A stretch of 64,000 nucleotides of DNA. Origin: Ruminococcus sp. GTDB taxonomy: Bacteria > Bacillota > Clostridia > Oscillospirales > Ruminococcaceae. Under the pieces are notes generated by a model. It did no database searches. It saw only the letters and a program-made list of their open reading frames with translations, and was not told where the DNA came from. Location: contig JAAVHJ010000008.1 of the NCBI GenBank assembly GCA_014799805.1, forward strand, positions 1-64,000, given 5' to 3'. The number at the start of each line of letters is the position of its first letter. Positions within the stretch are counted from its first letter, which is position 1. Of this stretch, positions 233-20,002 are shown piece after piece. Position numbers and translations under genes: made by a program.

Positions 233-1768
233 ATGATAACAGGTGTCATTAAGAATAAGATAGATAAAATTTGGACGGATATATGGGCAGGCGGTATCAC
301 CAATCCGTTGACAGTGATTGAACAACTCACCTATTTAATGTTCATTCGTTCTCTTGATGAGAAAGAACTTGAAACAGAGGAATTTGCTAATCTGACGGGT
401 GAAACGGCTGACTTGATTTTTCCGCAGTCAGAAACAGGGCAGTCTATGCGTTGGAGCAAATTCAAAAATAGAGATTCTCGTGAGATATTTGATTTAATTT
501 CTCAGCGTGTTTTTCCGGCTGTCAAGAAGATGAAGTACGGCAAATTGCCTGATTTTAATGATAATGGTGAACTGATTGAAGTCCCCGACCGTGAAGAAGT
601 TGGACAGATGCAGACTGCATTCACCAGATATATGGATAGTGCGGTATTTGTGATCCCAAGTCCTCAGGTATTACAAAAGATTATTACTGGATTGGAAGAT
701 TTATATGAGCATGATATTGCTGACCTTGATATGCAGGGAGATTTATATGAGTATATGCTCGATAAGTTAGCGACTTCTGGAAAGAACGGACAATTCCGCA
801 CGCCTAAGCATATCCGTGAAATGATGGTGGAGCTGATTCAGCCAACTCCTGAGGATTTAGTTTGTGATCCGGCTTGCGGAACGGCTGGCTTTCTGATTTC
901 AGCAGCAGAATACATCAGAAAGCATTATGAGGGTACTATGTCCGAAGAACAATGGACTGCCTTTGAAACTAAGAGCTTTTCCGGCTACGATACTGACCAA
1001 ACTATGCTTAGAATCTCTGCTATGAATCTGATGTTGCATTCTATTACGAATCCTGATATTGCCTATAAAGACAGTGTTTCAAAGCAGAATGATATCAGCG
1101 GAAAATTCACAGTTGTTCTTGCAAATCCGCCGTTTAAGGGTTCTGTTGATGCGGAAAGTATCAACGATAATCTGAAAGCTGTTACTAACACAAAGAAAAC
1201 AGAACTCCTTTTTCTTGCGTTGTTTCTCCGACTACTCCAGAAAGGTGGAAGATGTGCGTGTATCGTTCCTGATGGCGTACTGTTCGGCTCGTCCAAGGCT
1301 CACAAATCTATCCGTAAGGAGCTGATTGAAAATCATCAGCTGAAAGCCGTTATTTCTATGCCAAGCGGTGTTTTCAAGCCGTATGCAGGTGTTTCAACGG
1401 CGGTACTTGTATTTGTAAAAACAGGTGCAGGGGGTACAGATAATGTTTGGTTTTATGATATGAAAGCGGACGGTTTTTCCCTTGATGACAAACGCACAGA
1501 AATTACTGAAAATGATATTCCTGATATTATTTCCCGTTTCCATAATCTTGATGGCGAAAAGGACAGAGAACGCACGGAGCAGAGTTTTTTTGTGCCGAAG
1601 CAGGAACTTATTGAAAATGATTATGATTTATCGATAAACAAGTATAAAAAAACGGAGTATGTAGCGGTTGAATATCCCCCGACTTCTGAAATTATGACAG
1701 AGCTTAATGATTTGTATAAGAATCTGGGTGGTATGCTTTCAGAGTTGGAGGGATTGCTGAATGAATAA
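233..1768 (+). CDS. hsdM: Type I restriction-modification, DNA adenine methyltransferase subunit
   Basis: Modification subunit of a type I restriction-modification complex; it transfers methyl groups from S-adenosylmethionine to N6 of adenine and, with HsdS, marks host DNA. The 511 residues have the usual order: N-terminal helical HsdM domain (about 1-150), then the N6-methylase domain with the SAM motif DPACGTAGFL starting near residue 212 and the catalytic NPPF near residue 298. The start has GGAGG ten bases upstream of ATG. The stop overlaps hsdS by eight bases, so the two are translationally coupled. No anticodon nuclease gene of the PrrC kind is inserted in the locus. Confidence 0.96.
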   Translation: MITGVIKNKIDKIWTDIWAGGITNPLTVIEQLTYLMFIRSLDEKELETEEFANLTGETADLIFPQSETGQSMRWSKFKNRDSREIFDLISQRVFPAVKKMKYGKLPDFNDNGELIEVPDREEVGQMQTAFTRYMDSAVFVIPSPQVLQKIITGLEDLYEHDIADLDMQGDLYEYMLDKLATSGKNGQFRTPKHIREMMVELIQPTPEDLVCDPACGTAGFLISAAEYIRKHYEGTMSEEQWTAFETKSFSGYDTDQTMLRISAMNLMLHSITNPDIAYKDSVSKQNDISGKFTVVLANPPFKGSVDAESINDNLKAVTNTKKTELLFLALFLRLLQKGGRCACIVPDGVLFGSSKAHKSIRKELIENHQLKAVISMPSGVFKPYAGVSTAVLVFVKTGAGGTDNVWFYDMKADGFSLDDKRTEITENDIPDIISRFHNLDGEKDRERTEQSFFVPKQELIENDYDLSINKYKKTEYVAVEYPPTSEIMTELNDLYKNLGGMLSELEGLLNE

Positions 1769-2942
1769 GAGGAAAACTGTTAAACTTGGAGATATTTGTG
1801 ACATACTGAATGGATATGCTTTCAAAAGCAAGAATTATGTTGATTCTGGAATTAGAGTAATAAGAATTACAAATGTACAAAAGGGATATATTGAGGATTC
1901 TAATCCACAGTTTTATCCATTTGAAACAAGAAAAGATATTGAAAAATATATGCTATATAGTGGAGATTTATTAATGTCATTGACTGGTAATGTTGGTAGA
2001 ATTGCTATACTTACAGACAAATTTCTTCCTGCTGCACTAAATCAGCGGGTTGCTTGTATACGTCTAAAGGAGAATTCTCCAATTGATAAACGATTACTTT
2101 TCAACATGCTAAATTCTGATTTTTTCGAACAACAATGTATATTATCATCAAATGGTGTTGCTCAAAAAAACATGAGTACAGAATGGCTTAAAGAATATCA
2201 ACTTCCAATATTTGATATTGAAATACAACAATTAATAACTTCAACTCTCGACAAAGTAACCCACACTATCGACCTTTGCAATCAGATAATCGAAAAGCTG
2301 GATTTGCTTATTAAAGCGAAGTTTGTGGAGATGTTTGGGGATTTAATTCATAATAAGCAGAAGTGGATTACCTGTAGTGTTGGAGATATTGCTGAAACAG
2401 TTGACCCTCAACCAAGTCACAGAACACCTCCTATTGTTTCTAATGGAATCCCCTATATCGGAATAGCAGAGTGCAACTACAATACACAAACCATAGATTT
2501 TACAAATGCGAGAAAAGTCGGAGTCAATGTGTTAGAAGAACATATTAAAAGATATAGTATTTCCGAAGGCGATTTTATAATTGGTAAAATCGGCACAATT
2601 GGGAAACCATTTTTTGTTCCTACTGACCGTACTTATACACTGTCGGCAAACACAGTTCTTATTCAACCAAATAAAATAAAAATTAACTCTCAATTTTTAT
2701 TCGCTATATTTCAGTCTGAATATATGAATAGAATAATTGATATAGAAAAAAAGTCAACATCTCAGCCAGCTTTTGGTATACAGAAAGTAAGAGCAATTGA
2801 GATTCCTCTTCCTCCACTTGACTTACAAAATCAATTCGCCGCCTTTGTAAAACAGACCGAAAAATCAAAATCAGCAGTGAAACAGGTGCTTGAAAAGGCT
2901 GAAACGCTTAAAAAGGCACTTATGCAGGAATATTTTGGATAA
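1761..2942 (+). CDS. hsdS: Type I restriction-modification, specificity subunit
   Basis: DNA-recognition subunit that directs HsdM and HsdR to a bipartite target. The 393 residues show two target-recognition domains (about 1-150 and 205-345), each followed by a helical spacer: the central one contains IIEKLDLLIKAKFVEMFGD and the C-terminal one KSAVKQVLEKAETLKKALM. These two spacers are almost the same, also at DNA level, as those of the orphan hsdS at 26509-27600, while the recognition domains differ. The gene overlaps hsdM by eight bases and is 14 bases from hsdR, so it is the middle gene of the operon. Confidence 0.95.
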   Translation: MNKRKTVKLGDICDILNGYAFKSKNYVDSGIRVIRITNVQKGYIEDSNPQFYPFETRKDIEKYMLYSGDLLMSLTGNVGRIAILTDKFLPAALNQRVACIRLKENSPIDKRLLFNMLNSDFFEQQCILSSNGVAQKNMSTEWLKEYQLPIFDIEIQQLITSTLDKVTHTIDLCNQIIEKLDLLIKAKFVEMFGDLIHNKQKWITCSVGDIAETVDPQPSHRTPPIVSNGIPYIGIAECNYNTQTIDFTNARKVGVNVLEEHIKRYSISEGDFIIGKIGTIGKPFFVPTDRTYTLSANTVLIQPNKIKINSQFLFAIFQSEYMNRIIDIEKKSTSQPAFGIQKVRAIEIPLPPLDLQNQFAAFVKQTEKSKSAVKQVLEKAETLKKALMQEYFG

Positions 2943-2956
2943 TAAGAGGTGATACT

Positions 2957-5900
2957 ATGTCAAATTTTGTATTTTTATCTAAAACAGAAGAATATAAGCT
3001 CTTTTCTGCCGCAGCAATAGAAGCTGAAAAAATTTTTGTAACCTCTCCGGCAATGTGTGCAGTGGGTTGCCGTAAAGCTCTGGAGCTTGCTGTTAAGTGG
3101 GTGTATTCTGCTGATACGACAATTCATATGCCCTATAAGGATAATCTGCAATCACTGATACATGAGCCATCATTCCGCTTTGCTCTGGATAGTCAGACAT
3201 GGGGGAAACTGCCGTTTATCATCAAGCTTGGCAATCTCTCAGTACATACGGAAAGAGCCGTAAGCAAAGCAAATGCGTTACTTTCCTTGCAAAGTCTGTT
3301 TGAGTTCATTCAATGGCTGGATTATTGCTATGGAGCAGATTATGAAGAACGGTATTTTCAGCCTGATCTGATTCCAACGGAGAAATTTGCAATCGACACA
3401 AAAAAGATGAAAGCACAGGAAGCACTGATTGAACAGAAAGACAGCGAAATCAAGGCATTGCAGAAGAAGATAGCAGAAATGTCAGTAAAATTGACTGCTG
3501 AAAAGAAAGAAAAGCAGGAAACTCGTAGATTCTCATCTCATGCCAGTGAATTTGAGACCAGAAAATGCTATATTGATGTTGACTTGAAGCTGATGGGCTG
3601 GAAATTTGAGGGTACTGATGCGGATGTCTGGGAAGAATATGCTGTGAACGATATGGGCGGTATACAAGGAAAAAAAGGCTATGCTGATTATGTGCTTCTG
3701 GGTCGTGATGGTCTGCCCCTTGCTGTCATTGAAGCAAAACGCACAGGCAAAGACCCGAATAACGGCAGAAAGCAGGCTGTATTATATGCGGATTGTTTAG
3801 AGCGTAAATTCGGACGCAGACCAATGATTTTCACTTCTAACGGCTTTGAAACTTATTTTTGGGATGATTTCACTTCTCCGCAAAGAAGAGTAAGCGGATT
3901 TTTTACAAAATCCGACCTTGAAAAGCTGATGAATCGCCGTGAGACTCGCAAAAGGCTGAATCAGATTGCCATCAATGACAAGATTACTGACCGCTATTAT
4001 CAGAAAGGAGCTATCCGAGCTGTTTGTGAGCATATTGAAAAGGGTTTTCGCAAGGCTTTGCTTGTGATGGCAACAGGTACAGGCAAGACTAGAACAGCTT
4101 CAAGTCTGACAGATGTTTTAAGTCGTGGGGGATATGTAACAAATATACTTTTTCTTGCTGATAGGACTGCACTTGTAAAACAGGCAAAAGACGATTTCAA
4201 GCAATATCTTCCCGATATGTCATTATGTAATCTTTGCAGTAATAAAGATGATAAGAATGCTAGAATTATATTTTCTACTTATCCTACAATACTCAATGCA
4301 ATTGACAGTGCAAAAACAAAAGACGGCAATCCAATATTTTCACCAGCACATTTTGACTTGATTATTATTGACGAAAGTCATAGAAGCATTTTCAAGAAAT
4401 ACAGGGTAATATTTGAATATTTTGATGCAATCATGGTTGGATTGACTGCTACTCCGAAAGTCGATGTTGACAGGAATACATATGATTTCTTCGAGGTAGA
4501 AAATGGTGTTCCGACATATGCTTATGATTATGAAACCGCAGTCCAAAAAGACCATGTTCTTGTGCCATATTATAATTATGAAGTGAAGCTGAAATTTCTT
4601 GACGAGGGTATCACTTATGATGAGCTTTCCGAAGAGGACAAGGCAAGATATGAAGAAGATTTCGCAGAAGATGGCTATATTCCTGATTTTATTTCCTCAA
4701 CAAAGCTGAATCAATTTGTATTTAATGAGAACACTGTAGATATTGTTCTGCAAGACCTGATGGAGCGTGGAATTAAAGTTGCAGGTGGTGACAGACTCGG
4801 CAAGACGATTATATTTGCTCAGAATAAAGATCATGCGGAATTTATTATCAAACGATTCAATGCACTTTATCCACAGTATCACGGGAATTTCGCCCAACGT
4901 ATCACCTGTGATGATAGTTATGCGCAGACAGTAATCGAGGATTTTAAGGTACCCGATAAAATGCCAATTATCGCTGTTTCCGTGGATATGATGGATACAG
5001 GTATTGATGTTCCGGAGTGCGTGAATCTTGTATTTTTCAAGAAAGTACGTTCAAAAACGAAGTTCTGGCAGATGATCGGAAGAGGGACAAGACTCTGTAA
5101 AGATTTAGGCTGTATAGATGCTATTGATGGAGAATATACGGACAAGTGCAGATTTCTGATTTTTGATTACTGTGGTAACTTTGAGTATTTCAGACAGCAT
5201 AAAAACGGCTATGAGACGGCGGAAACCAAATCATTAACTGAAAATATTTTCTGTAAGCAGATACAACTGATCTATCATTTGCAGGAGAGTGCTTTCTCAG
5301 ATATGGAGTATCAGACTTTTCGTAGTCATTTAGTAGATATTTGCTATCAGGATATATGTAACTTATCCTATGATCTGGTATCCGTTCGCCTGAAAAAAGA
5401 ATATGTGGAGAAGTTCAAACAAGCTGACAGTCTTATATCGCTCTCTGAAATGGATAAACATGAACTGATTAAGCAGATTGCTCCACTGATTACACCCAAA
5501 GATACAGATGAGTTTGCAAAGCGTTTCGATAATTTTATGTATAGCTTAATGCTTGCGAATATAGACCAGCTTCCAGGACTGAAATATCTGAAAAAACAGC
5601 TTTGTCAAACTGCTTTACTTCTTGAAAGAAAAGCAGCTATCCCACAAGTACAGCAAAAAATGGATATTATCAAGGCTATTCAGACAGATGACTTCTGGAA
5701 TAGTATTAATATTCTCACATTGGAAAGAATACGTTCTGAACTCCGTGACCTGATGCAATTTCTTAGCAACGATAAAATTCATAAGATATTTACGAATCTT
5801 TCTGATACTGTAATAGACCCCCAAGAAGGCAATGTTTTAGATGCTGCTTATGATTTTGAGGATTACCGAAAGAAAGTCAACCGCTATGTAGAAGAGCATA

Positions 5901-6322
5901 AGAATGATGCTGTTATCTATAAGCTAAATCATAATCTTCCACTGTTTCAGGCAGATTATGATGAACTGGAACGAATCCTTACACAGGAACTCGGCGATAC
6001 TGAGGATTATCAGCGTGAATATGGCGATACGCCTTTTGGTCTGCTTGTACGGAAAATTGCGAAACTCGATCACGATAGTGCTATGTCTGCATTTTCGCAA
6101 TTTATCAATGACAGCTCGCTGAATCAGCAACAGATTGAATTTATCCTGAAAATCATCAATCATATCGAGAACAATGGATATATCGAAGATGTGAAGATAC
6201 TGATGAAACCGCCATTTGATAAGCCTTACAGCTTTATCAAGATGTTTGACCCGAAAACAAGAGCTATGATTATTCAGACAATTGAGAATATTAAAAACAA
6301 TGCCCTGCAAGTGGCAGCTTAG
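2957..6322 (+). CDS. hsdR: Type I restriction endonuclease subunit with N-terminal DUF4145-like domain
   Basis: Translocating and cutting subunit of the restriction complex. Residues about 20-140 resemble a DUF4145 domain, followed by a coiled coil (about 145-190). The nuclease domain has the PD-(D/E)xK pattern D244 ... E259-A-K261 within PLAVIEAKR. The motor follows: Walker A with GTGTGKT near 370-376, DESH near 472, helicase C motifs with ATPK and MIGRGTRL, and an EcoEI-type helical C-terminal domain. At 1121 residues it is full length for this subfamily. RBS GAGGTGA precedes the ATG. The motifs needed for both activities are present, so the system is probably active. Confidence 0.95.
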   Translation: MSNFVFLSKTEEYKLFSAAAIEAEKIFVTSPAMCAVGCRKALELAVKWVYSADTTIHMPYKDNLQSLIHEPSFRFALDSQTWGKLPFIIKLGNLSVHTERAVSKANALLSLQSLFEFIQWLDYCYGADYEERYFQPDLIPTEKFAIDTKKMKAQEALIEQKDSEIKALQKKIAEMSVKLTAEKKEKQETRRFSSHASEFETRKCYIDVDLKLMGWKFEGTDADVWEEYAVNDMGGIQGKKGYADYVLLGRDGLPLAVIEAKRTGKDPNNGRKQAVLYADCLERKFGRRPMIFTSNGFETYFWDDFTSPQRRVSGFFTKSDLEKLMNRRETRKRLNQIAINDKITDRYYQKGAIRAVCEHIEKGFRKALLVMATGTGKTRTASSLTDVLSRGGYVTNILFLADRTALVKQAKDDFKQYLPDMSLCNLCSNKDDKNARIIFSTYPTILNAIDSAKTKDGNPIFSPAHFDLIIIDESHRSIFKKYRVIFEYFDAIMVGLTATPKVDVDRNTYDFFEVENGVPTYAYDYETAVQKDHVLVPYYNYEVKLKFLDEGITYDELSEEDKARYEEDFAEDGYIPDFISSTKLNQFVFNENTVDIVLQDLMERGIKVAGGDRLGKTIIFAQNKDHAEFIIKRFNALYPQYHGNFAQRITCDDSYAQTVIEDFKVPDKMPIIAVSVDMMDTGIDVPECVNLVFFKKVRSKTKFWQMIGRGTRLCKDLGCIDAIDGEYTDKCRFLIFDYCGNFEYFRQHKNGYETAETKSLTENIFCKQIQLIYHLQESAFSDMEYQTFRSHLVDICYQDICNLSYDLVSVRLKKEYVEKFKQADSLISLSEMDKHELIKQIAPLITPKDTDEFAKRFDNFMYSLMLANIDQLPGLKYLKKQLCQTALLLERKAAIPQVQQKMDIIKAIQTDDFWNSINILTLERIRSELRDLMQFLSNDKIHKIFTNLSDTVIDPQEGNVLDAAYDFEDYRKKVNRYVEEHKNDAVIYKLNHNLPLFQADYDELERILTQELGDTEDYQREYGDTPFGLLVRKIAKLDHDSAMSAFSQFINDSSLNQQQIEFILKIINHIENNGYIEDVKILMKPPFDKPYSFIKMFDPKTRAMIIQTIENIKNNALQVAA

Positions 6323-9372: not shown

Positions 9373-9385
9373 TATTAAAAAACGC

Positions 9386-9414
9386 TTGACATTATTTCTA
9401 TATTGAGATATAAT
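9386..9414 (+). promoter_or_regulatory. Consensus promoter of the exported-protein operon
   Basis: TTGACA (9386-9391), 17 bases, TATAAT (9409-9414): a perfect sigma-A match. It lacks the upstream box of the ligase promoters. Transcripts would carry a leader of about 210 bases containing ligase relic 2. Confidence 0.85.
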
Positions 9415-9454
9415 ATAAATAGCTCTGCTGAGAAGCGGTTCTAAGCGTTGAAAT

Positions 9455-9637
9455 AGTGAGGGTATTGTCATCAGACAACAAGTAGAGAAAATATTTTTTT
9501 GACTTGTGCAGGATTGTATTAAAGAAGCACCTCACATTGTTTATCAGATTCATAAATTTGGTACTCATACACACCAAATTACAGTAAAGATTTTAAAGGA
9601 AATTATTAAAGATAAAAATATGAGGTGTATATTTTGA
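9455..9637 (+). pseudogene. RNA ligase relic 2 (C-terminal pieces)
   Basis: In one frame, broken by TGA at 9500-9502, it reads SEGIVIRQQ, then VEKIFF-stop-LVQ, then DCIKEAPHIVYQIHKFG and ITVKILKEII. The intact ligase has GEGIVIKKQ (motif IV), VEKILYKLV and DCVKEVPEVVNQIENFG plus IRLAKEILKK at corresponding places. The DNA GTGAGGGTAT and GTCAT are also shared. So motif IV and two C-terminal segments remain, joined by deletions, and the N-terminal half is missing. It overlaps the first bases of the lipoprotein gene that follows. Confidence 0.8.
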
Positions 9638-11913
9638 GAAGATACGAATCGACAGTATTAGTGACAGCGATGGCAATTCTGAGCAGCTGTATTCTATGCG
9701 GATGCAGTAAAGAAAATGAATCAGAATCCACTGCACAAACTCAGGAGACTGTAGCAACACAAGCGATGGCAATACTTGAAACAGTGGTTCAAGAAACGGA
9801 ACAGGAAACTGAATCAGCGTTTGAGAGTGAACTTGAATTATATGAGGATATTCTTCAGCATCCAAAGAATTATTCTGAAATATGGCAGAAGTATACTGGT
9901 TCTATCGAGTATAGTATTATTGACATTAACCATGATGAACGGTATGAGTTAATTATTGTAGAGCCGATAGATATTTCATCACATGTGATTCAGCAGTTTA
10001 CTATTGTCATGCCAAATCTGAATGAACTGGAATATATCAGTCCTGATGAAAGTAATATGATGAATTATTATACATTCTACGACACAGGAGTGATGAAAAC
10101 TACCACAGCCGCTGGAAATTTCACTGTAAGATTCTATTATGATACAAAAGACGGAAGTTACTGGCTCTCAGAGATGACTAGTGAGGATGAAATGCAGCAT
10201 GTATGGCTCGGAGATGTGAATGCCGAAGAATATACAGAACCTGAATCTTATTTATTTGAAGGAGAATCTGCTGAGAAGAAACTTGCAGAACTGACAGCAG
10301 GTACAGAACTTGATATACCATTTTATGCTTATGATTTGCAGCATCCAGAGGATATTACTTCATTGAGTATTGTAGAAGATATTGATTCTATCCGTCAGAC
10401 ATGGGATAAGTTCTTGCAGGAAAATAGGAATCATCTGGGTACTTCCTCAAATGAGTATGCAATTCTGTATATTGATGATGATGACAGTCCGGAGATATTG
10501 GTTCATTCTGACGAGCCAGAACCAGGAGTCAACAATCTGTATACTATTGGAACGGAATATGTATATTATGTGATGCAATTTGATGAAGGACTCGGTATAC
10601 GTTTCAGTGGCTACAGTGAGAAAGAGAATTTATTCTGGACAGATGAGGGCAGTGGCGACGGATGGGGTTCGACATTTTATCGCTTAGAAGATGGTTTACC
10701 TGTCAAATTAGACTGTTTTTTAGCAATAAGTGGTGGAGAGCAAATGCATTTTTATTTGAATGATATAGAAGTATCAGAGTCAGAATTTTCTCAAAAATAT
10801 AATGCATATCCACATGACAGCAGTTCAGATTATACATTTCTTTCACACTCGGAATTTCAGAATCAGATTACAAAACTTTTGCCATCACAACCGAATAACA
10901 CTAGCAATACTACGAATCATTCCTCTGATGATGGCTGGAAAGATGCCTATCTGCAAGTAATTGATGAGCTTACTGCACAGATGACAAAATATACAGCACC
11001 ATATGAAGGGGCATTAATGTATATAGATGATGACAATATCCCAGAGATGTATTTCTGTACAAATATGAATCCAGGGGAAGTTTATGGAGGAATTTATACT
11101 TATCAGAATGGTGAGGCGGTACTAGTACATGAAGTTAGCAATCGTGAGTTCTACTATGGTCATAAGGAAAAAAATGGTGAGTTTGCTACTCATGGCTGGA
11201 ATACTGATTCTGAATATATGACTTTTTTCACTATGAACGGAACTACACGAAAGGAAAATAATAAGTTTATCTGTAACGTGGATACAACTGCCCATAGTTA
11301 CACAGTTAACGGAAATGATTATTCTGAGTCAGAATATACAAATAAACGCAGTGCGGAAGAAGACGGTTTTATTTGTGCTGAGATAGTGGATGCGGATAAG
11401 CTAAAAGCCAAAATCAGTACAGAAGAAATTAGCACAGCTCCGCAGATATCTACTATTTCCGGTACAGCAGAAACAAAGTATCTAATTTGTACAGATGCCG
11501 TAACATGGGATGAGGCAGAACGTCTTTGTGAACAGCGAGGTGGACATCTGGCTTATATTAAGACAAAAGCGGATTATGATGCGATTATTTCAGCATTGGA
11601 TACTACCAAACTTCGCTATCTTTGGGTTGGGGGTACTTCAAAGCAAGCTGGTGGTGTATGTATCGGAAAATGGACAGACGGCAGCAGTATGACCTATATC
11701 AATGAGAATAATTTATGGTTCAATGGTGAGCCATCCGGATATGATCCGAAAGCGTCTAATTACGACTATGAGCCGTATATTATGCTATGGAACATTAAGG
11801 AACAATGGAGTTTCAATGATAACAGTGATGTCGCTCTTGATACATACAAGCATGAATATTTCGGTTATATATGCGAGTTTGATTCTGCTTCATCTGGTAT
11901 AGAGATTGAGTAA
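9634..11913 (+). CDS. Lipoprotein with Ca-binding-like repeats and C-type lectin domain
   Basis: Surface lipoprotein of about 759 residues. TTG 9634 is chosen because GAGGTG lies six bases upstream; a GTG at 9625 is the alternative. The signal sequence ends in the lipobox LCGC. An acidic linker follows, then a module (about 70-260) shared with the next protein, several acidic strand motifs (IIDINHDERYELII, LYIDDDDSPEILV, MYIDDDNIPEMYF) that resemble Ca-binding loops, and a C-type-lectin-like domain from about residue 625 (WDEAERLCEQRGGHLAYIKT ... WFNGEPSG ... YICEFD). Carbohydrate or surface binding is likely; no catalytic motif is seen. The next gene starts 18 bases later in the same operon. 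Confidence 0.8.
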   Translation: MRRYESTVLVTAMAILSSCILCGCSKENESESTAQTQETVATQAMAILETVVQETEQETESAFESELELYEDILQHPKNYSEIWQKYTGSIEYSIIDINHDERYELIIVEPIDISSHVIQQFTIVMPNLNELEYISPDESNMMNYYTFYDTGVMKTTTAAGNFTVRFYYDTKDGSYWLSEMTSEDEMQHVWLGDVNAEEYTEPESYLFEGESAEKKLAELTAGTELDIPFYAYDLQHPEDITSLSIVEDIDSIRQTWDKFLQENRNHLGTSSNEYAILYIDDDDSPEILVHSDEPEPGVNNLYTIGTEYVYYVMQFDEGLGIRFSGYSEKENLFWTDEGSGDGWGSTFYRLEDGLPVKLDCFLAISGGEQMHFYLNDIEVSESEFSQKYNAYPHDSSSDYTFLSHSEFQNQITKLLPSQPNNTSNTTNHSSDDGWKDAYLQVIDELTAQMTKYTAPYEGALMYIDDDNIPEMYFCTNMNPGEVYGGIYTYQNGEAVLVHEVSNREFYYGHKEKNGEFATHGWNTDSEYMTFFTMNGTTRKENNKFICNVDTTAHSYTVNGNDYSESEYTNKRSAEEDGFICAEIVDADKLKAKISTEEISTAPQISTISGTAETKYLICTDAVTWDEAERLCEQRGGHLAYIKTKADYDAIISALDTTKLRYLWVGGTSKQAGGVCIGKWTDGSSMTYINENNLWFNGEPSGYDPKASNYDYEPYIMLWNIKEQWSFNDNSDVALDTYKHEYFGYICEFDSASSGIEIE

Positions 11914-11931
11914 GATAGAAAGGATATAGAG

Positions 11932-13977
11932 ATGAGAAAAAAGATAAAAAGAGGAATCGCTAGATTTACCGCTGGATTGATAGCGATAACTAGTATTCCT
12001 ACACTAGTTAGTGCAGAATATGCTGATACATGGAATGGAATCAATCCTGATATTAACAGTGATGGAGAAATAAATGCATTAGATGCATCATATGTACTGG
12101 TCTATGCTGCTGAGAACGGTGCAGGCAATGTCAGCAGTTTTGAGGAATATATGACAAATTACTTTAGTTCAGGTACAGAATGGCAGTCATTGTATTTAGA
12201 TGTCATTGATCAGTTCGGTGATTCTCATGCCGAAGAAAATTTACCATGGCAGTATAAGCTTGCCTATATTGATACAGATGATATTCCTGAACTTCTGGTA
12301 ATGTGCTATGGTGAGGTACATTATTATACAGTTGATAACAATGAAGCAATTGAATTTCTTACTTCTGTGGCACAAGCACCATATTTATCTATGGGAACAA
12401 ATGAGTATTGTGGGTATATTCCTAAAAGTGGTATCATTTTGACCACTTCTCCGCATGCCTTAAGTCATTCAAACGGTTCTGATGATTTTGTATATTCCCT
12501 GAAAAACGGCAAGGCTGAACTGATTGCCACATATGTAACGGAGCTTGCTGGAGAGTCTAACAGTTATGAATTTAACTATTATATTGATGGCGAACAGGTT
12601 ACGGAGAGTGAATTTAACGAAAGTTTAAGTGTTTATTTTTCTCAAATTGATATGGATGAAACAACACTGTCCTATGATGAGCTCAAAACAGAACTTTCTA
12701 TTGTGTCGGATACGAGTACTTCTAGATCATCTGAGAATATCAATCCTGACCTTAATGGTGATGGTGAGATAAATGCATCAGATGCATCTTATATCCTGGT
12801 ATACGCAGCTGAAAACGGTGCAGGTAATATCAATAGATTTTCGGAATTTATGGAGCAGTATTTCGGAGAAGGTACACAGGAAACAGTCAATTGGTGGATT
12901 TCGTATGCGGACAGAATTAAATCCTATGGCAGTGATACAGACATGCAGTTTGCATTTATCTATTTGGATGATAATGATGTGCCTGAACTGTTGGAATTTG
13001 ATTCTAACAATCAAGCTATGATTACTTTTGTGAATGAAGATTCCTGCATAACTTCTGAGAATATATATTATCTATATGGTTCTGGATATGATGAAAGACA
13101 AGGAATTGTTTATTGTTTTGAAGATCTTGGTGGTGAACTCTTATATACTGCAAAACTGTACGAAAGTGAGCTTGAGGAGCATCAATTCCAAAGTATTCCT
13201 TTATCTGATGATTACGGCTTGACAGGTGAATATGATTACTATATTGATACAATTCAGGTGACAAAAGTTGAATATGAACAGCTCCGCAGTGAATTTATTC
13301 ATGAAGATGCAGAACATACATATCTTAGTTCTTTAAATCGTATGACCTGTTCCGAAGCTCTTACCTATCTGGATAGCTTTACCCATCAGGATGAAGTTTT
13401 CAATGATGAGCTTGCTTTGTTCGATGACATATTAAGAAATCCAGAGTCTTATCCAGAGGTATGGAATATCTACAATAAGAATGATGCTATTTCCTACAGT
13501 GTTATTGATCTGGATGGAAATGGACAATATGAATTGATTATCGGAAATTTGCTATTCTCAGGCAGTTATACTTCGATGACAGTTGTTCAATTGTCATCAA
13601 ATGAAATCAAGATCAGTCATCCGAAAGATTTATTCGGTCAGTTGACATTTTTTGATAATGGTGTTATTCTGGCTGATTTCAGTGGTTCAACCATCAATTA
13701 TTTTACGTTCAATATCACTGATTTGAGCGGATGGTCTGCTTATACTGAAAAGCTTGCTATAGATACATATGAGTTCTATGCTTATCCCTGTAATCCAGAA
13801 ACCGGAGAAATTTTTGAGGATAAAATGCTGACGGGAAAAGAGGCAGAATTGAAAATAGCAGATATCTGCTCCAGTACTCCGCTTGATATGCAATTTACAG
13901 AATATGATCTTTCTGATCCGGATAGTTTTAATACACTGATTGTAATTGACAATCTTGACGAAATTCGTCTGACATAG
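11932..13977 (+). CDS. Secreted protein with two separated dockerin-like repeats
   Basis: A 681-residue exported protein: basic start, hydrophobic core and VSAEY signal-peptidase site near residue 30. NPDINSDGEINALDASYVL (about 36-54) and NPDLNGDGEINASDASYIL (about 268-286) are dockerin-type calcium loops with their helix, but they lie 230 residues apart instead of next to each other. Each is followed by a module with YIDTDDIPELLVM or YLDDNDVPELLEF. The last 190 residues (ELALFDDILRNPESYPEVW onward) align with residues 70-260 of the preceding lipoprotein and end where that module ends. The two genes thus share ancestry and probably a surface function, unknown in detail. Confidence 0.78.
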   Translation: MRKKIKRGIARFTAGLIAITSIPTLVSAEYADTWNGINPDINSDGEINALDASYVLVYAAENGAGNVSSFEEYMTNYFSSGTEWQSLYLDVIDQFGDSHAEENLPWQYKLAYIDTDDIPELLVMCYGEVHYYTVDNNEAIEFLTSVAQAPYLSMGTNEYCGYIPKSGIILTTSPHALSHSNGSDDFVYSLKNGKAELIATYVTELAGESNSYEFNYYIDGEQVTESEFNESLSVYFSQIDMDETTLSYDELKTELSIVSDTSTSRSSENINPDLNGDGEINASDASYILVYAAENGAGNINRFSEFMEQYFGEGTQETVNWWISYADRIKSYGSDTDMQFAFIYLDDNDVPELLEFDSNNQAMITFVNEDSCITSENIYYLYGSGYDERQGIVYCFEDLGGELLYTAKLYESELEEHQFQSIPLSDDYGLTGEYDYYIDTIQVTKVEYEQLRSEFIHEDAEHTYLSSLNRMTCSEALTYLDSFTHQDEVFNDELALFDDILRNPESYPEVWNIYNKNDAISYSVIDLDGNGQYELIIGNLLFSGSYTSMTVVQLSSNEIKISHPKDLFGQLTFFDNGVILADFSGSTINYFTFNITDLSGWSAYTEKLAIDTYEFYAYPCNPETGEIFEDKMLTGKEAELKIADICSSTPLDMQFTEYDLSDPDSFNTLIVIDNLDEIRLT

Positions 13978-14088
13978 AATGAGATTTTACAAAAAATATA
14001 GATTATCTGGGAAGTATGCAATTCTGTTATGTGAATGATATAAAGGTCTCCATTGCTAGCTGAATACCAGACCTATACTTGAGTATTA

Positions 14089-14128
14089 ACCGCATTACCA
14101 GAATGTTTTCGGGTACTGCGGTTTTTAT
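14089..14128 (+). terminator. Terminator after the exported-protein operon
   Basis: ACCGCATTACC (14089-14099) pairs with GGGTACTGCGGT (14111-14122, one bulge), followed by TTTTATATTTC. Confidence 0.75.
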
Positions 14129-14144
14129 ATTTCTTGAGCAATAA

Positions 14145-14199
14145 GGATTTTATTCCGGAAGCAGAATCACTTGAAATTTACATTATAATATGCTATAGT
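14145..14199 (+). promoter_or_regulatory. Shared upstream box plus promoter (copy 2)
   Basis: The 26-nt box 14145-14170 begins GGATTTTATTCCGGAA; -35 TTGAAA (14171-14176), 17 bases, -10 TATAGT (14194-14199). Same order and spacing as at 6435 and 9002. It drives the RNA ligase-Thg1-like operon. Confidence 0.75.
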
Positions 14200-14238
14200 A
14201 TATTTACTGAGAATAATTTTACAAAGGAGGAAAAAATA

Positions 14239-15150
14239 ATGTTAAAACATAAGCATTACATGGATATCGAAGTGCTGAAACCTGAAATGAAAGACATGTT
14301 TCATGAAGGCGACAAGATTATCATACAGGAGAAAATTGATGGTTCAAACGTCAGCTTCCAGTATGACAGCGAAACAGATTCTATTCAGTGCTTTAGCCGT
14401 AATCAGATACTTTCTGCTGAAAATACGCTGAAAGGTTATTATGAGTGGGTACAGAAACTTGACAAAGAGCTTGTAAAGTTGGTTCTCGGCGACAAACTGC
14501 GTATGTTTGGAGAATGGCTTGTAAAACATACTGTAAAGTATCCGGAGAAGCGTTACAATACAGTGTACTGCTTTGATGTTTTCGATACGGAAAATAAGTG
14601 TTGGCTTGCACAGAATGAGGTAAAAAGTCTGGCAGATAAGCTTGGTTTGAATTATGTTCCGGTTTTCTATGAGGGCAAATTTACCGCTTGGGAGGATTAT
14701 AATTATCTTGTAGGCAAGACAGAAATGGGCGGAGAGCTTGGTGAGGGTATCGTCATTAAGAAACAGAATAATCTTTCAGATAATATTGCGTATACGAAAA
14801 TTGTACACGAGCGTTTTAAAGAGGTATGGAAGAAAGTTCGCCATCATTCAGAAAGTTCCGAAGAGAAACGTGAGAAGAAACGTCTGGAGGAGCTGACAGA
14901 GACCATTGTAACACCTGCGAGAGTGGAGAAAATTCTGTATAAACTTGTGGACGAGGGTATTCTACCGGAGGATTTTTCTATGAAAGATATGAAAATGATT
15001 TACAAGACACTTCCATCAGCGGTATATCACGACTGCGTTAAGGAAGTACCCGAAGTTGTAAATCAGATTGAGAATTTCGGCAAGTTCTCAAATAGCATTT
15101 GCATAAGACTTGCAAAAGAGATTTTAAAAAAGAGGGAGGATGTAATATAA
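14239..15150 (+). CDS. RNA ligase, Rnl2-like nucleotidyltransferase family
   Basis: ATP-dependent ligase that seals RNA 5'-phosphate and 3'-hydroxyl ends through a lysine adenylate. ATG 14239 is chosen for AAAGGAGG nine bases upstream, giving 303 residues. All nucleotidyltransferase motifs are visible: I K32-IDGSN, III FGEW with E92, IIIa VYCFDVFD (109-116), IV GEGIVIKK (168-175) and V with K187 in YTKIVHERF. A helical C-terminal domain (about 200-303) is family-specific. It is the first gene of an operon; its stop overlaps the Thg1-like start by one base. Two decayed relatives lie at 6528 and 9455. RNA rather than DNA specificity is inferred from family likeness. Confidence 0.88.
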   Translation: MLKHKHYMDIEVLKPEMKDMFHEGDKIIIQEKIDGSNVSFQYDSETDSIQCFSRNQILSAENTLKGYYEWVQKLDKELVKLVLGDKLRMFGEWLVKHTVKYPEKRYNTVYCFDVFDTENKCWLAQNEVKSLADKLGLNYVPVFYEGKFTAWEDYNYLVGKTEMGGELGEGIVIKKQNNLSDNIAYTKIVHERFKEVWKKVRHHSESSEEKREKKRLEELTETIVTPARVEKILYKLVDEGILPEDFSMKDMKMIYKTLPSAVYHDCVKEVPEVVNQIENFGKFSNSICIRLAKEILKKREDVI

Positions 15151-15920
15151 TGGGTGATAATCTTGGCGACCGAATGAAAGGGTACGAAAATATTACAAGA
15201 TACTATCTTACACGCAGAACACCTGTAATTATACGTCTTGACGGCAAAGGATTTCACAGCTTTACAAAGGGATTTGTTCGCCCTTTTGACGATATTCTGA
15301 CAAATGTTATGTATCAGACTATGAAAGAACTGTGTGAAAACGTTGAGGGTTGTGTAATAGGCTATACGCAGTCAGACGAGATTTCTCTTGTAATGTGCGA
15401 TTATCAGAAACTTGATACAAACGCATGGTTCAGTAACGGACTGCTTAAAATTTGCAGTATTACTGCAAGTCTGGCAACATCTGCATTTAACAAATATTTC
15501 AGAAAAGCGGTAGAAAATACGGATGGTATATACAAAAAAAGAATTGATAAAGCAAATTTTGACAGCAGGGCTTTCAGTATTCCAAAAGAGGAAGTAAACA
15601 ATTATATGATATGGAGACAGCAAGACGCAATCCGTAATTCTATTCAGGCAACTGCTCAGGCATATTTCAGTCACAGTCAGCTATTGGGTGTAAACTGCAA
15701 TAAGGCAATAAAAATGCTTCTGTCTGAAAAAAATATTGACTGGAATGGATTTCCATTGAGTTTGCAGAGAGGAGTTTGTTGTATCAGAAAGCCTTTTGTA
15801 ATCAATGAGGGTACGGCTAATGAAGCACTGAGAATGAAGTGGGTACTTGATATGGAAATCCCATTATTCACTGAGAAACGAGATTATATTGAAAAAAGAA
15901 TTTATTTTGAGGGTGTATAA
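15150..15920 (+). CDS. Thg1-like protein (3'-5' RNA polymerase / tRNA repair)
   Basis: Template-directed 3'-5' nucleotide addition to the 5' end of RNA. The 256-residue protein has RLDGKGFHSF with metal ligand D31 and YTQSDEIS with D76/E77, the numbering known from Thg1. Where eukaryotic Thg1 has HINNLYN after WRQQD, this protein has WRQQDAIRNSI (155-165), typical of bacterial Thg1-like proteins that repair truncated tRNA 5' ends rather than add G-1 to tRNA-His. Start ATG overlaps the ligase TAA by one base, with GGGAGGA upstream. The coupling to an RNA ligase implies a two-step repair: 5'-end restoration, then sealing. Confidence 0.9.
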   Translation: MGDNLGDRMKGYENITRYYLTRRTPVIIRLDGKGFHSFTKGFVRPFDDILTNVMYQTMKELCENVEGCVIGYTQSDEISLVMCDYQKLDTNAWFSNGLLKICSITASLATSAFNKYFRKAVENTDGIYKKRIDKANFDSRAFSIPKEEVNNYMIWRQQDAIRNSIQATAQAYFSHSQLLGVNCNKAIKMLLSEKNIDWNGFPLSLQRGVCCIRKPFVINEGTANEALRMKWVLDMEIPLFTEKRDYIEKRIYFEGV

Positions 15921-15921
15921 T

Positions 15922-16119
15922 ATGTATGATCACTTTATCGGAAAGTCAAAATTTTATGAAATAAAATCTCTTATACAAGATTATATCGACTATGGAAAAG
16001 AATACAATGGTTTAAGTTTAGAAGAAATCGGAGACAGAGCGTTTGAATATTATCAGAATGGGGATATGAGTTCTTCGCAATATGATTATCTTATCAGCAT
16101 GATTGAAGACTGGGAATAG
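15922..16119 (+). CDS. Small acidic protein in the RNA-repair operon (65 aa)
   Basis: Third gene of the ligase operon, one base after the Thg1-like stop, with GAGGGTG seven bases before the ATG. The 65 residues are acidic and mostly helical (KSLIQDYIDYGKEYNGLS, EEIGDRAFEYYQNG, SSSQYDYLISMIEDWE), without membrane segment or metal motif. I do not recognise the family. Its tight coupling suggests an accessory or regulator of the two enzymes. Confidence 0.75.
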   Translation: MYDHFIGKSKFYEIKSLIQDYIDYGKEYNGLSLEEIGDRAFEYYQNGDMSSSQYDYLISMIEDWE

Positions 16120-16403
16120 TTTTATTTTTTATCGTTGTACTGATATATTTTGAATTGACATTTTTTAATCCTGTTTTATGGATTCAATGAAGATGTTTTT
16201 CTTCTGCGTTAAGAAAAAAGTAATATTTATGATTAAATCCATGGAGTCTGTCTGTGTCTATTTTATGGACGTAGTTTTTATCGCAGGATGATCATAAATT
16301 ATGGTGTATCATTCATTAAATCCCTGAATTGCAAGAAATTTTCTGACGATTCATAAATTTTAAGAATAATGAATGGTGCAAAAACAAGAAAGAGGGTATA
16401 AAA

Positions 16404-17054
16404 ATGTCACAAAATTTTTTCAGTTGTTTATTCGAAACAGAGCAGAGACTAAAAGATAAACTACCAGAGGCACGAAGCGAAAATCATGATCTGTCCCTGA
16501 AAACAATTGGAGTATTAAAGCAGTTCGTCAACTCTTGCAAGTGGAATGATACAGAAAAAACTCGTTTGATGATAAGAAATATTCATCGAAGAGCTGTAGA
16601 TACTGCTAAAATTTGCAATGTGTCTCCGCATACTGTCAGAAGTGCGAGAAGTCAAGCTTCTAAAAAGCTTTTTCGATTGTTCGGTGAAGATGTGTTCAAT
16701 AAAATCATGAATGGAGACAGAGAGCTTTGTAATAGAACACTGGCACTGATATATGCAATCAGTTTTGGATATGATCGTGTCGAAAATTACATGCCTGAGG
16801 CACTTCTGAGAAAGCTGGAGTCACAGCAATCAAGTATTGATGTTAAATTCGCTCCTGAAGAACTTAGTGATGTGATTAGATTTCTTGGACGTTTCGACTT
16901 GATCGCAATGCAGAAACAACTTGAAAAGTTAGATCAAGAAAAACTGATGTATGTATTTGAAATTCTGAAAGACGACTTATTATTAGATGATGGCGAGCAA
17001 AATGTGAATATGTTGAAATTATCTATTTTGAACCAAATTATGAAGTATAGGTAG
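16404..17054 (+). CDS. Helix-turn-helix protein of unknown role (216 aa)
   Basis: Residues about 55-90 (RRAVDTAKICNVSPHTVRSA and following) look like a LuxR/sigma-region-4 type helix-turn-helix. The rest is helical, with a Leu/Glu/Lys-rich C-terminal third that could mediate dimerisation. No membrane segment. AGAGGG lies eight bases before the ATG. A weaker relative of the 26-nt box lies 65-90 bases upstream (16313-16338). It could be the regulator of the boxed promoters, but nothing in the sequence proves it. The 284 bases before the gene hold nothing else I can name. Confidence 0.75.
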   Translation: MSQNFFSCLFETEQRLKDKLPEARSENHDLSLKTIGVLKQFVNSCKWNDTEKTRLMIRNIHRRAVDTAKICNVSPHTVRSARSQASKKLFRLFGEDVFNKIMNGDRELCNRTLALIYAISFGYDRVENYMPEALLRKLESQQSSIDVKFAPEELSDVIRFLGRFDLIAMQKQLEKLDQEKLMYVFEILKDDLLLDDGEQNVNMLKLSILNQIMKYR

Positions 17055-17238
17055 AAATCAAAATAGTCAGAAACAAATGATTTTTGGATAAATAATATAA
17101 ATAGTGGAATTAATTTTAGTGAATTTGCAACTTGAAAATTATATATATTTATGGTAAGATAAATATGCACTAATGTTGGAGTTGCTGAATCATCATTTTC
17201 TGAAAGTAATGCCATACTGGTGCGAATTTCCGTGATTT

Positions 17239-17280
17239 GTTCCCGACAGATACTATGTGTATCTGTTGGGAACTATTTTT
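17239..17280 (+). terminator. Strong terminator, first of a tandem pair
   Basis: Arms GTTCCCGACAGATAC (17239-17253) and GTATCTGTTGGGAAC (17259-17273), one mismatch, followed by TATTTTT. Confidence 0.88.
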
Positions 17281-17300
17281 GTAGCTACTGATATTCTAAA

Positions 17301-17347
17301 AATTCCTGTTGAACCGTAGAGATGGTTCAGCAGGAATTTTTATTTTG
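17301..17347 (+). terminator. Strong terminator, second of a tandem pair
   Basis: Arms AATTCCTGTTGAACC (17301-17315) and GGTTCAGCAGGAATT (17324-17338), followed by TTTATTTTG. With the hairpin at 17239 it separates the cargo from the integrase module. The bases 17348-17520 hold no gene I can support. Confidence 0.88.
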
Positions 17348-17525
17348 TCATACAAATTAGCCCTGTTGTGTAAAAAAATGTCATACAATTTTATTAATTA
17401 TTTTTAATGACTTACTAATAGTCATATATGATATTGCTTTTGTTACACTATACTATTCATCAGACGTAATCTGCGAAGCACAATATTTAAGCAATTATAT
17501 GATTGAAAATCAATCACATTCTTAA

Positions 17526-17554
17526 TTGTTTTTTGAATAGAATAGAAATATAAT
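17526..17554 (+). promoter_or_regulatory. Promoter of the 78-aa gene
   Basis: TTGTTT (17526-17531), 17 bases, TATAAT (17549-17554), 62 bases before the start codon. Confidence 0.75.
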
Positions 17555-17615
17555 GCTAGTCAAAAGACAAATAGTATGATTTAAATGCATGTATTGCAAG
17601 AAAGGAGTAATTGTT

Positions 17616-17852
17616 ATGACAGAAACAAAAATATGTGCCTTAGATTCTTCGGCATTAAGCAAACAGGAACATAAAAATTCACAGTGTTCGAAAGATGTTT
17701 ACAAAGGAAAGAAAACTAGAAAGATACATACATACGATAAAGAAACAGGATATCACATTACATCAGTATTTCCAGTATTGAGCCCAGAGGAATGCAAAGA
17801 ACAGGCTGTTAATATCACAGCGGAAATTATAGCTCTGATGAAAGAAAACTGA
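17616..17852 (+). CDS. Small basic protein next to the integrase (78 aa)
   Basis: Not recognised. ATG 17616 has AAAGGAG eight bases upstream; the longer frame from 17589 has none. The middle is very basic (YKGKKTRKIHTYDKETGYHI) and the end forms a helix (SPEECKEQAVNITAEIIALM). Its place directly before the serine integrase, with its own promoter, makes a recombination directionality factor possible, but there is no sequence proof. Confidence 0.7.
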   Translation: MTETKICALDSSALSKQEHKNSQCSKDVYKGKKTRKIHTYDKETGYHITSVFPVLSPEECKEQAVNITAEIIALMKEN

Positions 17853-17868
17853 TCAGTAAAAATATGAC

Positions 17869-17897
17869 TTGCTATTTTGAAAATAGTATGTTATAAT
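17869..17897 (+). promoter_or_regulatory. Promoter of the integrase gene
   Basis: TTGCTA (17869-17874), 17 bases, TATAAT (17892-17897), 39 bases before the integrase start. Confidence 0.75.
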
Positions 17898-17936
17898 TAC
17901 AAACAAGTATGAATTATGAGTAGGAGGAATAGCGAA

Positions 17937-19490
17937 ATGATTGCAATTTATGCAAGGCAGTCTGTTGACAAAAAAGATTCTATTAGCATTGAAATGCAGA
18001 TTGCAGATTGTCGTAAAAAAGTAATAAATCATTCTGAAATTAAAATTTATCAGGATAAGGGCTTTAGTGGTGCGAATACTGACAGACCTGAATTTCAACA
18101 TCTAATGAATGATATTAGCAAAGGCAGAATCCAGAAAGTTGTTGTTTATAAACTAGACAGAATCAGCCGTTCATTATGTGATTTTATGAATATTCAGAAA
18201 CGATTCAATGAGTATGATGTTGAGTTTATCAGTGTACATGAAGATTTTGATACTAGCACACCAGTTGGAAAGGCAATGCTCAATATTCTTATGGTATTTG
18301 CAGAGTTTGAAAGAGAAACCATTCAAGGACGTGTCAAAGAGGCATCTTATGAACGAATGAAGCAGGGATTTTTTGTTGCAGGAATTGCCCCTGTTGGCTT
18401 TCGGAAAGTGTCAATGAAGATTGCTGGCAAGAAGACGCATTGTCTGGAGGCTGATCCCAATACAGAATGGGTGATTCGTGAGATATATGAACTCTACGCA
18501 AAACAAGATACCAGCATCGGCAGTATCGTAAAAAAGATCAATCAGAATCTGGAATATTATGGATTCCCAGATGCAGTATCCAACATCAGAATCAGCAGGA
18601 TACTGAGGAATCCTGTTTATGTGAAAGCTGATGCAGATGTATATCAGTATCTGGAAAGCAAAGGAGCTGATATAGTAGATGATATTGCTGAGTATAATGG
18701 TACAAGAGGATGCACACTTTATGGAAAAAGAAAGAATAAGACAGTCAGCAAGTTTACAGATCTGAATGGAGCTTTTGCAAAGCTTGGATGGCATGAAGGC
18801 TTGATATCTGGAAAACAGTGGTTAAGAGTACAATATAAACTTGACAATAATAAACAAGTGAAGAATTCTGGCAAAGGTACTCATAGTTGGTTGTCGGGGA
18901 TTGTAAGATGTGGGTATTGTGGGTATGCTATTATAATTGTAGATGGACAGTCCACAGGAAGAAAATATGTGAATTGTGGTGGCAGAAAGGATAAGAAAGG
19001 TTGCGAACGTAAGAAAGGGATTATTTTTGATGATATTGAAAAAGCAGTGGAAAATGATTTGCTGAGTCATATGATGCAGTATCAATACATTAGGGAGTCT
19101 AGACAGAAAAATCATGAACAGGAAGTGAATCAATACAAAATAGAGTTACAAAAAGTAGAAAAGGCAATTAAAAATATTGAAGAAAAAATTCTTATGCTTG
19201 AAGCTGATCAATTTGCAATGACGATAGGGGTATTTAATAAAAAGCTGGAGGAACTGTATACTCAAAAACAAGCCATCGAGCAGAAGATCATACAACTTAG
19301 AATGATAGATACAGAAGAAATTTCAGATGATGCTATTGAGAAGTATCTTGCTTCATGGAAAGATCTGAACATAGAAGAAAAAAAAATAATTGCCAGATTA
19401 TTTATTCATACAGTATATGTGAAGAACGATGAAATTTGCATTAATTACCGTATTAATCTAAATAATCAGACACAAAAAGATAATAATTAA
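17937..19490 (+). CDS. Large serine recombinase (element integrase)
   Basis: Site-specific recombinase that inserts and excises the element through a phosphoserine intermediate. The 517 residues start at ATG 17937 (AGGAGG nine bases upstream). The N-terminal resolvase domain (1-140) has the catalytic serine S9 in IYARQS and the arginines of YKLDRISRS. A recombinase domain (about 155-290) follows, then a zinc ribbon (CGYCGYAI ... CGGRKDKKGCER, about 320-350) and the long coiled coil (about 380-450) that controls direction. It reads toward the asnB junction only 75 bases away, the usual place for such an enzyme. Confidence 0.95.
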   Translation: MIAIYARQSVDKKDSISIEMQIADCRKKVINHSEIKIYQDKGFSGANTDRPEFQHLMNDISKGRIQKVVVYKLDRISRSLCDFMNIQKRFNEYDVEFISVHEDFDTSTPVGKAMLNILMVFAEFERETIQGRVKEASYERMKQGFFVAGIAPVGFRKVSMKIAGKKTHCLEADPNTEWVIREIYELYAKQDTSIGSIVKKINQNLEYYGFPDAVSNIRISRILRNPVYVKADADVYQYLESKGADIVDDIAEYNGTRGCTLYGKRKNKTVSKFTDLNGAFAKLGWHEGLISGKQWLRVQYKLDNNKQVKNSGKGTHSWLSGIVRCGYCGYAIIIVDGQSTGRKYVNCGGRKDKKGCERKKGIIFDDIEKAVENDLLSHMMQYQYIRESRQKNHEQEVNQYKIELQKVEKAIKNIEEKILMLEADQFAMTIGVFNKKLEELYTQKQAIEQKIIQLRMIDTEEISDDAIEKYLASWKDLNIEEKKIIARLFIHTVYVKNDEICINYRINLNNQTQKDNN

Positions 19491-19554
19491 AAATAATCGT
19501 CAGGATATAATAGTATCAATTTTTATCTATATCTAGCCAAAAATATATTTTTAC

Positions 19555-19575
19555 TTTTATATCCTTTCTTGATAG
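19555..19575. other. Predicted right attachment site (attR) within asnB
   Basis: In-frame similarity to asparagine synthetase (LLDRKDRMSM type) begins at about TTTCTTGATAGA (19565-19576) and is absent to the left, where a stop (TAG 19511) occurs in the same frame. The crossover must lie near here. The matching left site is outside the window, so the core dinucleotide cannot be fixed. Confidence 0.5.
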
Positions 19576-20002
19576 AAAAGACCGTATGAGCATGTGGAAT
19601 GCCTTAGAAGTTCGTGTGCCGTTCTGTGATTACAGAATTGCACAGTATTTATATAATATTCCTTGGGAATTCAAAGAATACAAAGGTTATGAAAAAGGCT
19701 TATTGCGAGAAGCAATGAAAGATTATTTACCCGAAGAAGTGCTTTGGCGTAAAAAGAGCCCTTATCCAAAAACGCACAATCCAAATTATCTGATGACAGT
19801 TACAAAATTACTAGAAGACCGTTTGCAAAATCCAGAAGCACCAATTTTGCAGATAATCCGCCGTGAAGCTTTAGAACAGCTCCTATATGGCAATGATAAT
19901 ATTCAATTTTATGGGCAATTAATGACAAAGCCACAAACAATTGCTTATTTTTATCAATTAGATTATTGGCTGGAAACTTATCAAATTAAAATTAATTTAT
20001 AA
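19565..20002 (+). pseudogene. asnB: Asparagine synthetase C-terminal fragment (interrupted gene)
   Basis: The frame FLDRKDRMSMWNALEVRVPF, then EYKGYEKGLLREAM and EVLWRKKSPYPKTHNPNYL is the C-terminal part of glutamine-hydrolysing asparagine synthetase (synthetase domain). Only about 145 of the usual 600 or so residues remain; the N-terminal glutaminase domain and the ATP pyrophosphatase motif SGGxDS are missing. The cut coincides with the end of the integrated element, so insertion inactivated the gene unless excision restores it. A 138-aa product from ATG 19586 would not be enzymatically complete. Confidence 0.88.

Follow-up and report, generated by a model that had tools for sequence, protein, structure and literature searches.

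What might an RNA ligase do for a bacterium when its gene overlaps that of a Thg1-like protein (TLP), i.e. a predicted 3'-5' RNA polymerase? The question is raised by a three-gene cassette at positions 14239-16119 of a 64,000-nucleotide stretch of Ruminococcus sp. (assembly GCA_014799805.1, contig JAAVHJ010000008.1, positions 1 to 64,000; hereafter the window), where the open reading frames (ORFs) for an RNA ligase, a TLP and a protein of 65 amino acids (aa) overlap or abut. Our answer, to which we give a probability of roughly 55 %, is that the ligase and the TLP form a mobile RNA-repair cassette for structured RNA (tRNA is the likeliest substrate) that has been cut or has lost 5' nucleotides. 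The ORF coordinates agree with the three-gene operon layout proposed in a preliminary description of this DNA: a one-base overlap (TAATG) joins the ligase and TLP ORFs, a one-base gap separates the TLP ORF from the 65-aa ORF, and AGGAGG is found 5' of the ligase ORF (14225-14230).

Two enzymes with conserved catalytic residues

The ligase belongs to the Pfam family RNA_ligase (PF09414; E 1.2e-30, 107 bits, curated cut-off 27), and the nucleotidyltransferase motifs I (KxDG), III, IV and V are all present. Among the 121 best-scoring family members in which conservation was read, K32, D34, G35, R54, E92, E169 and K187 are invariant, with gaps in at most two rows (K32, D34 and G35 are borne by 119 of 121, E92 by 120, E169 and K187 by all, the remainder being gaps), and K174 is present in 120 of the 121, with one substitution. 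Thus, both the family and the catalytic residues named in the preliminary description (K32, E92, motif IV and K187 of motif V) were confirmed. Since the score against the Rnl2 equivalog model TIGR02307 (26.5 bits) falls well short of its cut-off of 197, we call the enzyme Rnl2-like. Its structure model comprises a domain at residues 1-198 and helices at 207-302, and a Foldseek search with it ranked T4 RNA ligase 2 (2hvr) first over the whole length, but with a root mean square deviation of 16-18; the VIA-align rows cover mainly residues 1-198 of the model and barely probe the C-terminal domain. The enzyme resembles T4 RNA ligase 2 (PDB 2hvr, 2hvq and 1s68) in its ligase motifs, as best Foldseek match and perhaps in a two-domain plan, whereas the two share only about 16-17 % identity and are set apart by the TIGR02307 score. 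Searches of the PDB from the single ligase sequence and of viral contigs with that sequence alone gave nothing useful.

The second protein matches Pfam Thg1 (PF04446; E 9.2e-32, 110 bits, curated cut-off 29.2), and D31, S75, D76, E77, R162, N163 and S164 are invariant among 121 family members, including the three metal-binding acids of the Thg1 catalytic domain (D31, D76 and E77), in line with what had been proposed for it. WRQQDAIRNSI starts at residue 155, while HINNLYN, the motif named for true Thg1 (PMC6471195, in excerpt), occurs nowhere in the sequence; this difference, already stated in the preliminary description, held up at the level of string comparison. The closest solved structure is that of the Bacillus thuringiensis TLP (aligned residues 3-253, E 6e-66; PDB 4kgk and 4kgm; PMC3701042, in excerpt), which has the same metal-binding acids and RNS motif, but K43 where the window TLP has R44, and which differs from the window TLP in that the latter has an adjoining ligase gene. 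The tRNA-His gene of the window's genome encodes G-1, opposite C73, so that the TLP is not needed for tRNA-His maturation, and this purpose was rejected. Together with the nearest structure, the encoded G-1 bears out the earlier placing of this protein among TLPs of the repair type.

Both genes are under purifying constraint when judged by the ratio of non-synonymous to synonymous substitution rates (dN/dS). Compared with the related loci L008, L010 and L011, dN/dS is 0.05-0.10 for the ligase and 0.07-0.14 for the TLP; the TLP value is 0.14 against L012 and 0.12 against L013, and the ligase gives 0.20 with L016. Saturation of silent sites affects the comparisons with L017 and, for the TLP, with L016, which is also the only locus with which the 65-aa gene can be compared, again at saturation.

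Some relatives of the cassette are richer in genes. L016 encodes the ligase (cut at the contig end), the TLP, a relative of the 65-aa protein, a metallophosphoesterase, a microbial PARG, a second metallophosphoesterase, an RNase_T exonuclease, a protein without assigned role and an AraC regulator; L017 encodes ligase, TLP, phosphoesterase, PARG and phosphoesterase, with a divergent helix-turn-helix (HTH) gene; and L051 encodes ligase, TLP, PARG and phosphoesterase. Judged by family, the extra genes look like end-healing and ADP-ribose-removal enzymes. The window cassette is without PARG or phosphoesterase genes, while Pnkp, Hen1 and two PARG genes are found elsewhere in its genome. On contig C4 (L268, 2306-6222), a full Pnkp with kinase, phosphoesterase and ligase domains overlaps Hen1, in what is by gene content probably a second, chromosomal RNA-repair operon, and these two proteins could prepare RNA ends.

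That the 65-aa gene, the small partner envisaged earlier, travels with the ligase-TLP pair was not supported. The gene accompanies two of nine genomic ligase-TLP cassettes and is therefore not a core part; as most relatives of the pair do without it, it was rejected as a core partner. A protein search returned three relatives, including a near-copy (98 %) of no stated source; among the TLP neighbourhoods searched, a relative was found only in L016 (next best E 0.35), and the viral contigs gave none. No Pfam family scored over its cut-off. The model, built from five sequences, has three helices (mean predicted local distance difference test score 85.8), and since no PDB entry matched it at E 0.001 (best E 0.65), the fold points to no function.

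A probable mobile element at asnB

The cassette is likely carried on a mobile element inserted in asnB, as the positions of a serine recombinase gene and of the broken asnB suggest (Table 1). Seven of eight same-genus genomes have the two asnB parts one after the other, the two query pieces being 18 bases apart in every case, from which we infer that the element entered asnB; the available stretch of the eighth (L244) yielded no 3' part. Window positions 1 to about 19567 would be the portion of the element on this contig, and the broken end on contig C40 and the end of the window's contig likely belong to one element. The mobile setting claimed in the preliminary description, with its restriction system, is thus supported by the recombinase beside the split asnB, and the type I restriction-modification genes lie within the putative element.

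Table 1. Features of the cassette and its surroundings in the window
Feature	Position	Strand	Remark
Type I restriction-modification genes hsdM, hsdS, hsdR, further cargo of the putative element	233..6322	+	
Promoter-like site TTGAAA-17-TATAGT, TG preceding second hexamer	14171..14199	+	consensus match only
ATP-dependent RNA ligase, Rnl2-like, 303 aa; nucleotidyltransferase domain ~1-198 and helical C-terminal domain ~207-302	14239..15150	+	
Thg1-like protein (TLP), predicted 3'-5' RNA polymerase, 256 aa	15150..15920	+	
65-aa protein, lineage-restricted, no assigned family; predicted three-helix protein	15922..16119	+	
Terminator-like stem-loop	16252..16274	+	1 found vs 0.8 expected in shuffles
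216-aa protein, weak HTH similarity under Pfam cut-off	16404..17054	+	
Large serine recombinase, probably the element's integrase	17916..19490	+	phrog_95 integrase, E 4.6e-93
CTTGA common to both broken asnB ends, probable crossover site	19568..19572	+	
3' part of interrupted asnB; 5' part broken off on contig C40	19571..20002	+	

Of the signals around the cassette, the stem-loop downstream is at no more than chance level, and little weight attaches to the promoter scan (17 promoter-like sites in the region scanned against 9.9 expected in shuffles); an Rfam scan of 13900-19700 yielded nothing reaching the gathering score. Relatives of the 216-aa protein (40-42 % identity) also sit downstream of the ligase-TLP pair in L008-L010. 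One protein of C-type lectin and one of dockerin type are encoded as further cargo at 9625-13977. Upstream of the cassette, at 9079-13977, lie a gene of 97 aa and those of large secreted proteins; their relatives also precede the cassette in L009-L011, so that the common stretch may exceed the repair genes. Remnants of another ligase-like gene lie at 6583-6702 and 9503-9616, each a short match to the ligase family, and a 29-nucleotide direct repeat (6684-6712 and 9580-9608; 93 %) is present at both sites.

Proposed joint repair and its alternatives

In the proposed repair, RNA would be cut by nucleases, and host Pnkp, or the phosphoesterases of the richer relatives, would make 5'-phosphate and 3'-hydroxyl ends. 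The TLP would then re-add lost 5' nucleotides opposite the template strand in the 3'-5' direction, and the ligase would seal the nick.

Gene neighbourhoods were read in the best 80 of 164 genomic and the best 80 of at least 584 viral stretches with a TLP; neighbour families were our own clusters, used as hidden Markov models. Each took its name from the Pfam match of a single example, which for macro and RlaP scored slightly under the Pfam cut-off. Within 3 kb of the genomic TLP genes, this ligase family was found at eight loci, so that the co-occurrence that the preliminary description proposed to look for does exist in other genomes; OB-fold RNA ligases were found at four, RtcB at four and PNK-like genes at eleven. 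The corresponding viral counts were two (one a weak fragment), six, zero and 14. In a within-locus control comparing near (up to 2 kb) with far placement, with p values uncorrected for the number of families, the genomic loci had this ligase family near nine times and never far (p 1.4e-4, with the closely related L008-L011 all included and L009 entering twice). Macro-like genes (6:1) and PARG (4:0) were also mostly near in genomic loci, as were two phosphoesterase clusters (10:5 and 16:6) and RlaP-like genes (8:4) in viral ones, while PNK-like genes showed no enrichment, nor did macro-like genes in viruses (5:6).

The order is ligase-TLP in Ruminococcus and L051, and TLP-ligase in L025 and in phage contigs (L095/L207, which are one contig, and L215). 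On a quick tree of 91 rows, only 11 of them viral (L009 was dropped as too short, and L113, with a weak-fragment ligase match, was taken as unpaired), the pairing label changes at least five times for this ligase and 16 times for any ligase kind. Five independent pairings were nevertheless rejected as a conclusion, as an old pair that stayed linked but was lost in places would account for the parallel identities of the two proteins just as well.

Both genes are rare and patchy in the genomes surveyed, several of which are incomplete. Among 38 genomes of the genus, many incomplete, the TLP was found in three and the ligase in two, and in each of the latter two, one being the genome of the window and the other having the DNA of L025, the TLP gene adjoins that of the ligase. 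Among 295 genomes of the order, six have Thg1 and 36 a PF09414 match. From score and ORF length we take four of these matches for RNA ligases, the others being mostly in ORFs of DNA-ligase size, such as the weak match in a 660-aa ORF of a second Thg1 genome, G285. TLP genes are common in viral contigs, 38 of the best 80 loci being on contigs of at least 100 kb, and 21 of 72,556 plasmids match the TLP. Of 50,697 named phage records, some phages being entered twice, 272 match the ligase and 127 the TLP.

Other arrangements were seen around TLP genes. A gene of the RtcB ligase family lies within 3 kb in L021 (abutting), L036, L057 and L080. In L012-L015 the TLP is followed by a different gene of 171-174 aa (family c46, nothing above the Pfam cut-off), which is also present in L016, and in L013 and L014 a small resolvase gene follows as well. 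In L007 (1892-3358), the gene directly upstream of the Thg1-like gene encodes a fusion of a PNK-like domain with leucine-rich repeats of BspA type.

Several observations weigh against joint repair. The pairing is not obligatory and the coupling is loose: the window's own genome is the only one of the 295 in the order to pair Thg1 with a strong short-ORF PF09414 match, and the only one of 391 in the class to have both genes (seven have the ligase profile, five Thg1); L012-L015, the next closest TLPs, are without the ligase; and a TLP is nearby in only two of 23 viral ligase loci, on which a fixed pair in phages was rejected. Neither OB-fold ligases (genomic p 0.52, viral p 0.91) nor RtcB (p 0.27) are enriched near TLP genes. 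Residue 44 of the TLP is R, as in four other members, while 116 of the 121 have K, and K43 of the B. thuringiensis protein participates in 5'-end activation (PMC3701042, in excerpt); by sequence, the change appears conservative, and this lysine is not known as a defining residue of all TLPs. Finally, according to the available part of PMC6471195, nucleotide addition by TLPs is restricted to Watson-Crick pairs, and 5' pyrophosphate is removed inefficiently from ends of this kind. A filled end would therefore keep its 5' triphosphate, which a ligase of this type is not expected to join by itself, and a pyrophosphohydrolase would be required before a filled gap could be sealed.

The triphosphate problem makes separate use of the two enzymes a serious rival, if in our view a somewhat unlikely one: the ligase would reseal cuts with 5'-phosphate and 3'-hydroxyl ends, the TLP would restore 5'-shortened tRNAs, and the genes would merely gather on phages and mobile elements. 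Besides the expected 5'-triphosphate ends of TLP products, the loose coupling across genomes and phages fits such a division of labour, as do the viral TLP loci, which mix PNK-like, phosphoesterase, macro-like, RlaP-like and ligase genes variously, and phages FADO and G, which carry both genes far apart. It is harder to reconcile with the overlapping frames, the parallel variation of the two identities and the 9-to-0 placement of the ligase, even with four of its eight loci being close kin.

Quite unlikely, to our mind, is a phage-derived counter-defence module that the element retains to undo the work of host or rival tRNA nucleases during element movement or phage attack. Both proteins match phage families (phrog_548, E 1e-49, residues 6-298; phrog_4717, E 2e-87), at least 584 stretches of viral DNA encode a TLP relative, TLPs have been proposed to restore 5' ends in jumbo phages (PMC7824862, in excerpt), and type I restriction-modification genes lie within the same putative element. 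On the other hand, no anticodon nuclease or other nuclease partner was recognised among 14 scanned ORFs (window 1-19.6 kb, not each searched against every library), and no family of PADLOC 2.0.0 (2023) matched the ligase, TLP or 65-aa protein at E 0.01.

We consider it very improbable that the two genes have lost their function and are decaying as cargo: the same part of the element does contain remnants of another ligase gene, and the L009 ligase and TLP frames are interrupted (possibly an assembly error), but dN/dS of 0.05-0.14 and intact catalytic residues speak against decay. Least credible of all is G-1 addition to tRNA-His as by eukaryotic Thg1, with the ligase incidental, for which PF04446 is named, given that G-1 is already encoded and that no TLP was found in 35 of the 38 genus genomes, many of which are incomplete.

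Relation to known repair systems and meaning

The coupling is not undescribed in kind, a possibility that had been raised earlier. Anantharaman, Iyer and Aravind (2010; PMC2904730, in excerpt) described bacterial Thg1 neighbourhoods with PNK, MACRO and, in some, RNA ligase, and proposed a repair role. With these, the window cassette shares the adjacency of Thg1 and RNA ligase genes, and its richer relatives share the macro-fold (PARG) and phosphoesterase genes. It differs in having no PNK of its own, Pnkp being encoded elsewhere in the genome, and, compared with the available part of that account, in the overlap of an Rnl2-like ligase with the TLP, the nearby serine recombinase and the added 65-aa gene. 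Ligase-based repair is likewise known from Pnkp-Hen1 and Pnkp1-Rnl-Hen1 (PMC4411300, in excerpt), and Pnkp and Hen1 occur in the window's genome, but the cassette is without either and has a predicted 3'-5' polymerase instead. Jumbo phages have Thg1 and Rnl-type ligases among their repair enzymes; the accessible text of that survey (PMC7824862) proposes that Thg1 restores lost nucleotides or 5' ends and calls it sporadic, and contains no overlapping ligase-Thg1 pair. In the open-licence literature, nothing was found on Thg1 with RNA ligase and Ruminococcus, nor on Thg1-like with nick and RNA ligase 2. As far as this literature shows, three things are new: the overlap of an Rnl2-like ligase gene with a TLP gene at an element integrated in asnB, the PARG/phosphoesterase extension and the small gene.

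It is tempting to go further and to speculate, though we think this version of joint repair unlikely, that the element carries out mobile reverse gap repair of RNA, with the 3'-5' polymerase filling, the Rnl2-type ligase closing and the 65-aa protein as an optional adaptor, which would protect the host from RNA-cutting immune or rival effectors. If true, this would be the mirror image of polymerase-plus-ligase DNA gap repair, restoring cut and shortened tRNA or rRNA. Because the gene of a ligase of the nick-sealing type overlaps that of the TLP, end-healing enzymes are encoded in the genome and the TLP is not needed for tRNA-His, the pair makes one TLP role directly testable, in which 5' ends are rebuilt on a template and then sealed by the ligase. 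Such a route would mend breaks with lost nucleotides, which are beyond plain cut-and-reseal systems. A 2019 review (PMC6471195, in excerpt) left open on which substrates bacterial TLPs act in nature, and the cassette gives a likely route to learning what these proteins do in bacteria.
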